Source: Candidatus Kaiserbacteria bacterium RIFCSPLOWO2_12_FULL_50_10 (lineage in GTDB: Bacteria; Patescibacteriota; Minisyncoccia; Phycocordibacterales; UBA918). Taken from it: a stretch of DNA of 58,583 bases. The position numbers were made by a program, and so were the translations under genes. The notes below the pieces were generated by a model that did no database searches, had not been told where the DNA came from, and worked only from the letters and a program-made list of their open reading frames with translations. Shown in pieces: positions 15,080 through 20,411 of this stretch. The first letter of the stretch is position 1; each line of letters starts with the position of its first letter. The stretch lies in assembly GCA_001783515.1 (NCBI GenBank), contig MFMN01000015.1:1-58583 (forward strand), read 5' to 3'.

Positions 15080-15095
15080 TGTTCCATATGAAACA
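15080..15095. promoter_or_regulatory. parS-like palindrome at the yraN start
   Basis: TGTTCCATATGAAACA, a near-perfect 16-bp palindrome resembling bacterial parS (TGTTTCACGTGAAACA) with CATATG instead of CACGTG at the centre. It overlaps the last base of the -10 and supplies the ATG of yraN. Confidence 0.6.
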
Positions 15096-15507
15096 CCGAA
15101 TCGGTGAACTTGGCGAGTCTATTGCGGCGAAGCACCTTACTTCGCTAGGGTTTGAAGTGCTCGAGCGCAACTACTTTCAGCCGTGCGGCGAGATTGATAT
15201 TGTGTGCCGCAAAGGACGAACCCTCCATATTGTCGAAGTAAAGGCTACAGTATTTAGTAGTAGCGAGGAACTTCATCGAGCTGTTTCATATGAAACATAC
15301 CACATCAACGAACGTATCGACTACGAAAAGATGCGAAGTTTACGAAATGTCATCGGTATTTACCGGTCAGAACGAAAGTTTCATGGGAAACATGTCATAG
15401 ATGCCCTCTTTGTCTATCTTGTTCCCCATGAAACCTACGCGGCTGTTGAAATGCTTGAGGATTTAGAAGGTGAACTTACAAAGGGCGACGACTGGGATTT
15501 TGAGTAA
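15088..15507 (+). CDS. yraN: YraN family (UPF0102) nuclease-like protein
   Basis: This 139-residue protein has the PD-(D/E)xK core of the family: GELGESIAAKHLTSLGFEVLERNY, then GEIDIV with the active-site Asp, then HIVEVKA with the Glu/Lys pair. Members are predicted Holliday-junction-like or DNA-processing nucleases, often near rnhB or recombination genes. The ATG at 15088 was preferred over 15079 because TACTAT (15075-15080) ends 7 nt before it. The gene contains parS-like sites at 15080 and 15282; the latter encodes the peptide VSYET. Length is slightly above average because of an acidic C-terminal tail. Confidence 0.88.
   Translation: MKHRIGELGESIAAKHLTSLGFEVLERNYFQPCGEIDIVCRKGRTLHIVEVKATVFSSSEELHRAVSYETYHINERIDYEKMRSLRNVIGIYRSERKFHGKHVIDALFVYLVPHETYAAVEMLEDLEGELTKGDDWDFE
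15282..15297. promoter_or_regulatory. parS-like palindrome inside yraN
   Basis: TGTTTCATATGAAACA, a perfect 16-bp palindrome within the coding sequence. A weaker copy, AGTTTCATGGGAAACA, lies at 15377-15392. Confidence 0.65.
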
Positions 15508-15538
15508 TGTCCTTTATGTCTTATATAAAAGGACATTG
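15506..15538 (+). terminator. Terminator-like hairpin after yraN
   Basis: AATGTCCTTT pairs with AAAAGGACATT across an 11-nt loop, starting at the yraN stop. The pairing TGTCCTTT is repeated just downstream at about 15540-15548. Confidence 0.55.
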
Positions 15539-15741
15539 ATGTCCTTTATACGAACACTAGTGAAACTAGCAGGGAATCGACCCGGAATCACGGCTACTTT
15601 TATTCGTGCGCCGCACTCAAAAGTAGACTCGTGTTCCTGGTCGGACACTCGCTCTGTTGCGCTTCTTCGCTACCGCTTCGAATGCTCACAGTAAGCTCCG
15701 TGTCTTCGATTCCCTGGCGTAGGCGAAGCAGTTCGCCTACT

Positions 15742-15805
15742 CTCCCCGACCAATATAAAGAAAGAGCAGTCAGAAGACTGCTCTTTCTTTATATTGGTCG
15801 GGGAG
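15742..15805. repeat. 30-bp perfect inverted repeat entering tRNA-Pro
   Basis: The left arm 15742-15771 (starts CTCCCCGACCAATATAAAG) is the exact reverse complement of 15776-15805, with loop AGAA. The right arm includes the encoded CCA and the acceptor 3' strand of tRNA-Pro (to 15805). The inner part can act as the tRNA terminator. Farther left, TCGATTCCCTG (15706-15716) copies the tRNA T-arm but is separated from the left arm by a small hairpin (about 15720-15741). Confidence 0.85.
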
Positions 15806-15868
15806 CAGGGAATCGAACCCTGGCCACTCGGTCCCAAACCGAGTACACTACCATTATGCTACACCCCG
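15798..15868 (-). tRNA. tRNA-Pro (TGG)
   Basis: A 71-nt tRNA on the minus strand with anticodon loop TTTGGGA inside a perfect CTCGG/CCGAG stem, giving anticodon TGG. The T-arm is AGGGTTCGATTCCCT. The acceptor CGGGGTG pairs with CTCCCCG, with one T-T mismatch at the sixth pair. CCA is encoded at 15797-15795. The 3' end lies inside a 30-bp perfect inverted repeat, which is unusual. Confidence 0.9.
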
Positions 15869-15893
15869 ATGGTGAAGTCTTATCTTACACGTG

Positions 15894-15965
15894 TGCGCCC
15901 ACCAGGACTCGAACCCAGAACGCTTGATCCGAAGTCAAGAATGATATCCATTTCACTATGAGCGC
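15894..15965 (-). tRNA. tRNA-Arg (TCG)
   Basis: A 72-nt tRNA on the minus strand. The acceptor GCGCTCA pairs with TGGGCGC, the anticodon stem CTTGA/TCAAG encloses loop CTTCGGA with anticodon TCG (CGN arginine codons), and the T-arm is CTGGGTTCGAGTCCTGG-like. CCA is not encoded. It lies 25 nt from tRNA-Pro on the same strand, so the two may share a transcript. Confidence 0.9.
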
Positions 15966-16022
15966 GTGCCTCGTATCATACGCAAAAACATAAAAAACGC
16001 AACTGTGTTGCGTTCCCTTATG

Positions 16023-16430
16023 TTACTTCATAGACAACTTCTCCGCGAACGCTTTCATTTCGCCATCTGCGTACACCTCATGTGTTGGCTTTTGGAATGG
16101 TTGTGCGTTTTCGTATCGAGGAATAACGTGCACATGAAAATAAAAGACTTCTTGCCCTGCGGCAGGCTCATTGTTACCGTGCACATTCACGCCGTCGGCA
16201 CCGAGCGCTTGCTTCATATGTTGTGCCACTTTTTGTGCCGTTTGATACACGCGCCCTACTGTTTCACTTGGACAGTCGAGAATATTTCGGCAGCGTGCCT
16301 TTGGCACAACAAGCGTATGCCCTTTGTGTACGGGGGTCATATCAAGGAACGCAACGGTTGCGTCGTCTTCATAGATAATGTGAGCGGGGATCTCGCCGCG
16401 CACAATCTTATCAAATACTGTTTCTTCCAT
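16023..16430 (-). CDS. HIT family nucleotide-binding protein
   Basis: This 135-residue histidine-triad protein matches the HinT/Hit subfamily of nucleoside phosphoramidate hydrolases: FDKIVRGEIPAHIIYEDD at the N terminus, TPVHKGHTLVVPK in the middle, and the catalytic triad FHVHVIPRY (H-x-H-x-hydrophobic). The length is typical. The start at 16430 was chosen because TATACT ends exactly 6 nt upstream; the longer frame would run through that promoter. It is divergent from recJ across a 36-bp promoter region. Confidence 0.92.
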   Translation of the reverse strand: MEETVFDKIVRGEIPAHIIYEDDATVAFLDMTPVHKGHTLVVPKARCRNILDCPSETVGRVYQTAQKVAQHMKQALGADGVNVHGNNEPAAGQEVFYFHVHVIPRYENAQPFQKPTHEVYADGEMKAFAEKLSMK

Positions 16431-16458
16431 GCGTGAAGTATAGCACTGTGTTATGATA

Positions 16459-16474
16459 TGTTCCATATGAAACA
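16459..16474. promoter_or_regulatory. parS-like palindrome at the recJ start
   Basis: TGTTCCATATGAAACA, identical to the copy at the yraN start. It lies 2 nt after the recJ -10 (TATGAT, 16452-16457) and supplies the recJ ATG at 16467, so it could also act as an operator. Confidence 0.6.
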
Positions 16475-18146
16475 CTATCGGGTTACTGAGCGCACTCAAG
16501 ACAACCTTGTTGAACAACTCTTGCAGAATCGGGGTGTTTCATATGAAACAAAAGGTGTGTTTCTCAACCCTGATTTTGAACGAGACTTGCACGATCCGTT
16601 TCTCATGACTGACATGCTTGTTGCTGTTGAACGTGTCCTTGTAGCACGTGAAACTAATGAAAAGGTTGTTATTTATAGCGACTACGACTGTGACGGCATT
16701 CCTGCCGGCACACTCATGCATGACCTTTTCAAAAAGGTCGGCATCACGAACTTCACGAATTATATTCCACATCGCCACAACGATGGCTTTGGACTCAATA
16801 TGAACGCCGTGAACACCTTTATCGAGGACGCTGTAACCCTGCTTATTGTGCTCGACTGCGGCACAGTATCCTTCGATGAAATTGCTCACGCAAAAGCGAA
16901 CGGTATCGATGTTATCGTTATCGACCACCATGAAACTGCGCAGGGAAGAATACCGGACGTTGTTGCACTGCTCAATCCGCGGCGCGACACAGCGTATCCA
17001 TGGCGAAGCTTATGTGCATGCGGTGTTGCATTCAAATTCGCACAGGCGTTTCTCATGAAACTTCGCGAGAGAGAACCTGCTATTGATATTCCACTTGGCT
17101 GGGAGCGCTGGCTCCTTGATCTTGTGGCGCTCTCCACGATTTCTGACATGGTACCGCTTGTGGATGAAAACCGCGTGCTTGTCACCTACGGACTCAAAGT
17201 GCTTCGTAAAACGCGAAGACATGGGCTTTTACGTCTTCTTCGCGACAATAAAGTGAATCCTGCGCATATTACCGAGGACGACATTGGTTTCACTATCGGG
17301 CCACGCATTAATGCTGCTTCGCGCATGGGCATTCCACGTATTGCTTTCACTATGCTTTCTGGTGACGACACAACAGGCCCCGAAGCAGCACAGGAGCTTG
17401 AAGATTTGAATAAGTCGCGAAAAGCAAAAGTTGCCGCCATGACTCGCGAGGTGCATCAAAAGTTTAAACACATGGATGAGATTCCTCCCGTGATTGTTAT
17501 TGGAAATCCTGACTGGATGCCGTCGCTTGCCGGACTTTTAGCAAACTCACTCTCTGAAGAATATAAACGCCCTGCGTTTGTCTGGGGGCGCGACGGGAAA
17601 GGGCATATAAAAGGCTCGTGTCGCAGCGCCTCTACCAGCGTCGTCGCACTTATGGAACATGCACAAGAGGCAATCCTGCAGGGCGGCGGGCATCATCAAG
17701 CGGGCGGTTTCGAGGTTGCTGATGATAAAATCCATACGCTTGGCGCAGCATTATGTGCAGCGCATGATGCACTTTCAGAAGATAGCGAGGCTGTTTCATA
17801 TGAAACAGTGGTAGACGCAACGCTTTCGCTTCATGAACTCACGAATGAAACCTATGCATCTATTGCGAGTCTGGCACCGTTTGGCATGAAGAATACCAAG
17901 CCGCTTTTTCAGATTCCAAATGTGACACCACACACCGTTGAGCTCTTTGGTAAAACAAAGGAGCACACCAAAATTACCCTCGAGGGCATGCAACACCATA
18001 TTCCCGCCATCGCGTTTTTCCGCACACCTGATTCGTTTCACATGGAACCTGAAGCGGGGAAGACCTGTACGCTTATTGCACACTTTGAAGAATCCTATTT
18101 TATGAACAAACGAGAGTTACGACTTAGAATTGTTGATGTTCTATAG
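16467..18146 (+). CDS. recJ: Single-strand DNA exonuclease RecJ
   Basis: RecJ is a 5'-3' single-strand exonuclease for recombination and mismatch or base-excision repair. The 559-residue protein shows DHH-superfamily motif I (YSDYDCDGIPAG), motif II (VLDCG), the DHH motif (VIDHHE), the GPRINAASRMG region and the DHHA1 motif GGGHHQAGGF. The start at 16467 was chosen over 16458 because the -10 TATGAT (16452-16457) touches the earlier ATG. The gene contains parS-like 16-mers at 16535 and 17792 encoding GVSYET and AVSYET, and weaker ones at 16640, 17047 and 18034. Confidence 0.93.
   Translation: MKHYRVTERTQDNLVEQLLQNRGVSYETKGVFLNPDFERDLHDPFLMTDMLVAVERVLVARETNEKVVIYSDYDCDGIPAGTLMHDLFKKVGITNFTNYIPHRHNDGFGLNMNAVNTFIEDAVTLLIVLDCGTVSFDEIAHAKANGIDVIVIDHHETAQGRIPDVVALLNPRRDTAYPWRSLCACGVAFKFAQAFLMKLREREPAIDIPLGWERWLLDLVALSTISDMVPLVDENRVLVTYGLKVLRKTRRHGLLRLLRDNKVNPAHITEDDIGFTIGPRINAASRMGIPRIAFTMLSGDDTTGPEAAQELEDLNKSRKAKVAAMTREVHQKFKHMDEIPPVIVIGNPDWMPSLAGLLANSLSEEYKRPAFVWGRDGKGHIKGSCRSASTSVVALMEHAQEAILQGGGHHQAGGFEVADDKIHTLGAALCAAHDALSEDSEAVSYETVVDATLSLHELTNETYASIASLAPFGMKNTKPLFQIPNVTPHTVELFGKTKEHTKITLEGMQHHIPAIAFFRTPDSFHMEPEAGKTCTLIAHFEESYFMNKRELRLRIVDVL
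16535..16550. promoter_or_regulatory. parS-like palindrome inside recJ
   Basis: TGTTTCATATGAAACA, identical to the copies at 15282 and 17792. Confidence 0.65.
16640..16655. promoter_or_regulatory. parS-like site with CACGTG core inside recJ
   Basis: TGTAGCACGTGAAACT keeps the canonical parS core (CACGTGAAAC) and differs from the usual consensus mainly at positions 4 and 16. It sits among the CATATG-type copies. Confidence 0.45.
17792..17807. promoter_or_regulatory. parS-like palindrome inside recJ
   Basis: TGTTTCATATGAAACA, the third exact copy. A weaker copy, CGTTTCACATGGAACC, lies at 18034-18049. Confidence 0.65.
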
Positions 18147-20315: not shown

Positions 20316-20343
20316 ATTGTATAACATAAAACAGAAAAGTCAA
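20316..20343 (-). promoter_or_regulatory. Promoter of the lipoprotein gene
   Basis: Minus strand: TTGACT (20343-20338), a 16-bp spacer and TACAAT (20321-20316), about 50 nt before the ATG. Confidence 0.6.
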
Positions 20344-20411
20344 GTATTTGGTAACACTTTGTCTCTTCTTGGTACACAAAAAGAACGCTGTCGCGTTCTT
20401 TTTGGCTACTG

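Follow-up and report, generated by a model that had tools for sequence, protein, structure and literature searches.

In Kaiserbacteria and relatives (Paceibacteria, candidate phyla radiation), we identified a family of short elements at the 3' ends of tRNA and tmRNA genes. Judged from sequence, they are probably non-autonomous, ORF-less mobile elements that insert at the T-loop (TTCRA) of these genes and are mobilised in trans. The copies share one architecture that recurs at many tRNAs, their antisense parts match their own tRNA, their cores covary, some stand in tandem, and cores have moved between tRNAs and between species. The elements measure about 190-300 nt, and the cores, which fall into distinct structural types of roughly 70-220 nt, leave no room for an ORF.

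The copy from which we started lies at 15568-15817 on the minus strand of the window (the whole 58,583-nt stretch of DNA analysed) and is one member of this dispersed ORF-less family. On the tRNA strand the order is tRNA with T-A, terminator palindrome, A', h, T', D1, D2 and a second sense copy; the parts in the window are as follows:

15893-15965, minus strand: tRNA-Arg(TCG), neighbour of tRNA-Pro (ARAGORN)
15795..15868, minus strand: host tRNA-Pro(TGG), encoded CCA included (ARAGORN; Rfam RF00005, 65.1 bits)
15795..15817, minus strand: T-A, the functional tRNA 3' half from T-loop TTCGA to CCA, first of three target copies (sequence)
15742..15805, minus strand: 30-bp perfect palindrome with a 4-nt loop, made of tRNA acceptor end, terminator hairpin and antisense acceptor
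15757..15790, minus strand: terminator-like stem-loop at the palindrome centre, AAAGAAAGAGCAGTC-TTCT-GACTGCTCTTTCTTT (sequence and fold)
15742..15748, minus strand: A', antisense copy of the acceptor 3' strand
15717..15741, minus strand: h, a hairpin inserted between A' and T', with a recurrent CTGC motif in the loop
15705..15716, minus strand: T', antisense copy of the T-arm 3' strand and T-loop (CAGGGAATCGAA)
15644..15704, minus strand: D1, conserved hairpin domain with internal loop C[GGA]GC..GC[GA]G (alignment A1 and fold)
15578..15643, minus strand: D2, conserved hairpin domain CGACCAGGAAC..GATTCCGGGTCG (alignment, fold; covariance model R1, 99.4 bits)
15568..15579, minus strand: remnant, the second sense copy of the tRNA 3' half (CGATTCCCTGCT), decayed past this point (also the sense T-arm copy)
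15520..15550, minus strand: second terminator-like hairpin behind the remnant (sequence), possibly the displaced original tRNA terminator

A first-pass annotation had described a 30-bp perfect palindrome at the 3' end of tRNA-Pro, and we recovered it where it had been placed, with arms (15742-15771 and 15776-15805) complementary at 30/30 positions around a 4-nt loop. It is the longest perfect palindrome of the window, the runner-up having arms of 19 bp, and 20 shuffles of the window gave no perfect palindrome with arms of at least 14 bp. The annotation had read it as the acceptor 3' strand with the encoded CCA and the next 19 nt, a reading with which the ARAGORN and Rfam calls of tRNA-Pro agree. 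The T-arm copies that it listed are present, antisense to the tRNA at 15705-15716 and sense at 15568-15579, and so is its small hairpin between the T-arm and acceptor copies (15717-15741). Its span ended at the T-arm copies; the 125 nt between them fold into two hairpin domains, and this core is the conserved and mobile part. The Rfam scan of 15450-16020 returned the two tRNAs and no other family above the gathering score; apparent miRNA matches were palindrome artefacts, far under that score. The terminator-like stem-loop at 15757..15790 was absent from the listing of a consensus scan. The tRNA-Arg/tRNA-Pro pair (window 15528-16035) is inverted relative to its counterpart in the related genome G001 (L037 5174-5648), with the flanking genes in the same orientation.

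The first-pass annotation had also proposed comparing the locus with related genomes. In a DNA search over 59 related genomes started from the window locus, 15572-15746 was matched elsewhere besides the tRNAs, and the order of parts recurred at other places, including a second one in the same genome. The hosts at the first loci read were tRNA-Pro, Leu(GAG), Leu(TAA), Arg, Gly and a tmRNA. Across copies the T-loop part of T-A is TTCRA; h, with its CTGC loop, is usual but not universal. Behind the core, nearly all copies inspected carry the second sense copy of the tRNA 3' half, which opens with CRANTCC; it is often decayed, and often near perfect with its own terminator next. A covariance model of D1-D2 built from eight copies (R1) matched 35/49 genomes of the family. 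We fetched 71 hits, 49 of which scored at least 30 bits and had enough upstream sequence; 28 of these 49 follow a tRNA or tmRNA on their own strand at a distance of 55-100 nt, covering 12 tRNA isotypes and tmRNA, and an opposite-strand tRNA within 150 nt was found for 0/71. Among the remaining hits, several are second tandem members, follow a tRNA that is masked or degenerate, or fall close to the end of a contig. Tandem elements behind one tRNA occur at Ser, Phe, Leu and others (e.g. L040, G062 Phe, L209).

A second core type (model R2) was found in 94/247 genomes and 70/152 genera of the order, again behind tRNAs (Glu, Gln, Arg, Tyr, Leu). It is almost confined to the order: in a phylum-wide sample R2 matched 7/380 genomes, two of them outside the order, and one of those two clearly carries the same architecture at tRNA-Leu. 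An exact core pattern searched in 84,980 species genomes occurred in Patescibacteria only, mostly in Candidatus Kaiserbacteria and once in a Nomurabacteria genome. Perfect palindromes can provoke chimeric assemblies, and the first-pass annotation had named this as its refutation. The recurrence of this architecture in dozens of genomes from separate assemblies, its sequence specific to the tRNA and its changes compensated, leaves an assembly artefact or a chance palindrome at one locus a negligible probability.

The arrangement had further been suggested for a search at other tRNAs. For every tRNA of the window genome (G000), G001 and G021, we asked whether its own 3' half recurs in antisense in the 450 nt downstream. 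Clear copies were present at 8/33, 11/36 and 11/37 tRNAs, respectively (30/106 in total), an occupancy of about one quarter to one third. All 30 antisense copies fit their own tRNA best, and 0 of the 32-35 other tRNAs of the same genome scored as high. A' and T' are either directly joined, without h, or about 25-27 nt apart, with h between them. The first-pass annotation had read the locus as an inverted duplication at an integration target. The integration part is supported by an insertion signature at the T-loop, with a whole tRNA, an insert and a displaced piece of the tRNA 3' end, which is repeated at many tRNAs; plain inverted duplication is insufficient, because it leaves the two-domain conserved core, the hairpin h and the family of copies unexplained.

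The cores are conserved as structures. In type III cores (alignment A3, 10 copies, mostly from one genome) 22/50 pairs have changed on both sides, and in type II cores (A2) 13/24. The covariation score was reached by 0/500 shuffles, and slid pairings collapsed. The tRNA strand folded better than its complement in 66/71 R1 cores, a preference that is partly circular since R1 was built on the tRNA strand, and in 12/12 type III cores, which were selected by their antisense copy without regard to structure. These results point to a tRNA strand that folds single-stranded, as RNA or as ssDNA. In four comparisons of inherited hairpins we counted five compensated pairs versus two broken ones. As a separate observation, D2 frequently ends in a GAGCGNAGCGA-type mini-hairpin (e.g. 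L165, L057, L042), which resembles the very stable d(GCGAAGC) DNA hairpin.

The strong covariation and the tRNA-strand preference, together with the constant strand and fixed distance from the tRNA, would also suit a D1-D2 that benefits the host as a structured RNA, or that acts in cis on the expression or 3' processing of tRNA, and that spread by duplication and not by selfish mobility. We consider this quite improbable, as a terminator-like hairpin separates D1-D2 from the tRNA, occupancy is limited to about one tRNA in three or four and sister species differ at the same tRNA; moreover, D1-D2 decays freely, stands in tandem and has its core swapped between tRNAs. The tRNA-processing hairpin offered in the first-pass annotation finds no support: the tRNA and the antisense copy have the terminator-like hairpin between them, most tRNAs are without the structure, and the core recurs whatever the identity of the tRNA.

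Evidence for movement came from G000 and G001, sister species of one genus whose syntenic DNA is ~69-83% identical. The core at tRNA-Ala of G000 is 96% identical to that at tRNA-Lys of G001, above the level of orthologous DNA, which argues that cores move; the terminator hairpins before these two cores are only 65% identical, about the level of unrelated hairpins here. Conversely, the orthologous Val(GAC) and Gly(GCC) genes have hairpins of 88-91% identity with cores of only 63-67%. Taken together, the two contrasts indicate that the hairpin stays with its tRNA while cores swap sites and species. Occupancy is unlike at many tRNAs of the two species, and at tRNA-His the distance from the tRNA to the conserved flank is about 388 nt longer in G000 than in G001. 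The tRNA-Gly of G017 has kept its hairpin and its core has decayed. We observed that behind the tRNA-Met scored as empty in G001 (L182) there is a perfect terminator palindrome and then GTCCCG, part of an antisense acceptor; this is probably an old decayed insertion. The tRNA-Val(TAC) of the window (20320-20411) has a terminator hairpin, GCCAAAAA..TTTTTGTGTAC, like that of type III elements, without T' or core, and is perhaps a decayed insertion too.

The left terminators of occupied tRNAs sometimes resemble those in 'empty' species (Met and Asp, less clearly His and Pro). This likeness fits a native left end with the element downstream, or 'empty' sites that are old decayed insertions. We weighed the explanation that the element inserted behind the native tRNA terminator and that its own inverted arms (A'T' and TA) were made to match the tRNA by template switching at the terminator hairpin (quasipalindrome correction), the second sense copy then being the end of the element and not the displaced original. 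Besides the Met and Asp terminators, which resemble those at the same tRNA in the sister species, the palindromes themselves speak for it: their pairing continues without a gap from the centre of the terminator to the T-loop, and they stay perfect, changed pairs being compensated and hardly any broken, even at loci with a decayed core (G017 Gly, G000 Trp). Against it, both sense copies begin exactly at the T-loop, an ordinary terminator often follows the second sense copy as expected of a displaced native 3' end, and h interrupts the antisense copy where acceptor and T-stem meet, a break not expected of simple fold-back copying. On balance this explanation is plausible but unlikely. Insertion at the T-loop has a count against it as well, in that classical attP logic would require one element lineage per tRNA.

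Under the favoured explanation of T-loop insertion with mobilisation in trans, the element would enter at the TTCRA of a tRNA or tmRNA gene and supply the tRNA 3' half and a terminator from its own side, so that the tRNA stays functional; the original 3' half would be pushed downstream and then decay. The tRNA would thus be restored as it is in integrase-type tDNA insertions (PMC4383910). The segment from T-A through the terminator, A' and h to T' would fold into one long asymmetric hairpin beside D1-D2, and the folded single strand would be mobilised in trans, probably by an enzyme from elsewhere. The crossover would fall on the T-loop, where the hairpin has its base, in analogy to integron attC cassettes or Xer-exploiting elements. 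The target copies could be matched to each tRNA by a copy borne on the element, by copying on insertion or by template-switch palindrome correction.

The direct repeats cover about tRNA nt 56-75 at every tRNA type, non-homologous ones included, with nearly the same core. This would suit a transposition that copies its target, in which a casposon-like staggered cut from the T-loop to the tRNA 3' end accounts for the direct repeat and the antisense copy arises by hairpin-primed synthesis; tRNA 3' ends are known casposon targets. However, Cas1 homologues are absent from 46/48 family genomes, including the element-richest, and terminal inverted repeats independent of the target were not seen, which makes this route distinctly unlikely.

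We searched 48 family genomes for four enzyme classes. A tyrosine recombinase was present in 46/48, nearly always in one copy. Reverse transcriptase occurred in 11/48 (present in G000, absent from G001 and G021), Y1 HUH transposase in 27/48 (absent from G000, G001, G021, G017 and G004, all of which carry elements) and Cas1 homologues in 2/48 (absent from G000, G001 and G021). The distributions of casposase, Y1 transposase and reverse transcriptase are not co-extensive with the elements, and we rejected them as resident movers. The single Xer-type tyrosine recombinase of the host is the only tested class general across hosts and is a candidate mover by co-occurrence, which is not proof because an Xer-type protein is expected in almost any bacterium.

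No element copy carried a recombinase or integrase gene, and the viral contigs had no match to two exact core patterns. Candidate cargo and carriers were rejected as well. An HTH ORF at the tRNA-Arg copy of G021 (L036 10286-10822), a copy whose right part is deleted, is a flanking gene, since in G017 the same gene is separated from the element by other sequence. For a LAGLIDADG homing endonuclease, one ORF end lies near the L098 copy, and a motif search of all fetched loci found no other. Large autonomous parents behind the tRNA-less hits (L049, L068, L087, L098) were discarded, there being no element ORFs; at least one upstream stretch among these hits looks like a degenerate tRNA.

Two further repeats were observed. 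A second dispersed module (CCTTGCG..hairpin..CGCAAGGTGTACTG with a short hairpin) occurs at G008 loci L064, L089, L090, L094, L097 and L105; it recurs away from tRNAs and inside some elements, one being nested in the tRNA-Phe copy of G001 (L183), and is possibly a related mobile repeat with another target. Eight GTTTCATATGAAAC-like palindromes stand in a 3-kb stretch inside the window (15081-18048), against 0.38 expected in the whole window, and GTTTCACGTGAAAC and GTTTCATATGAAAC lie near L036 9700 in the relative G021. These palindromes resemble parS and possibly form a parS cluster.

We advance only tentatively, as a near-even call that falls just short, the fuller proposal of a protein-less class that uses the T-loop of almost any tRNA gene, rebuilds the split tRNA and writes forward and reversed copies of the 3' half, the folded strand being recognised by shape by a recombinase acting in trans and the structured cores being exchangeable. 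If the mobility is true, ultra-small bacteria with genomes of ~1 Mb tolerate a dense load of minimal selfish DNA in their most essential genes, because the element repairs what it breaks. The elements would be among the smallest natural site-specific mobile units known and could show a recombinase guided to any tRNA by shape, not sequence. The tRNA 3' ends, terminators and 'antisense tRNA' fragments of these genomes would often be element-derived.

Judged on Rfam and the open-access literature, the element fits no existing family and its combination of features is new; that literature gave no description of such elements. The fragmentation of tRNA genes by mobile-element insertion is well known, and the movers described are phages and integrative conjugative elements (PMC9897764). 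Tyrosine-integrase insertion into tDNA restores the tRNA, a principle stated for the Islander class (PMC4383910). The islands and prophages of that class likewise show a regenerated intact tDNA, an insert and a displaced tDNA fragment, use tRNA and tmRNA targets and form tandem insertions. They are, however, kilobases long and carry an integrase, whereas the elements here are about 190-300 nt with neither integrase nor ORF; one family occupies many isotypes, with an antisense tRNA end and a folded two-domain core.

Casposons share the targeting of the tRNA 3' region and the direct repeat of the target, but the elements lack their Cas1 (in 46/48 genomes), ORFs and target-independent terminal repeats. 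MITEs and REP-type palindromic repeats are similarly short, non-coding, dispersed, palindromic and presumably moved in trans; unlike them, the elements have a T-loop-specific site, target-derived arms and a restored tRNA, and Y1 is missing from several element-rich genomes. The repetitive hairpin-forming elements of sponge mitochondria also invade a compact genome, and the passages on them available to us in PMC2800124 make no mention of tRNA 3' half restoration or an antisense target copy. Integron attC cassettes, which may be small or empty, share the tandem arrays and the long asymmetric hairpin, variable in sequence and conserved in structure, beside the presumed crossover. Integrons rely on IntI and attI; here tyrosine recombinases, scored as a class, occur in 46/48 genomes, mostly one per genome. 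The attC trait of a structure-conserved imperfect palindrome beside the presumed crossover has its counterpart in the own-tRNA hairpins with their compensated changes, the arms of which, unlike those of attC, are the tRNA 3' half.
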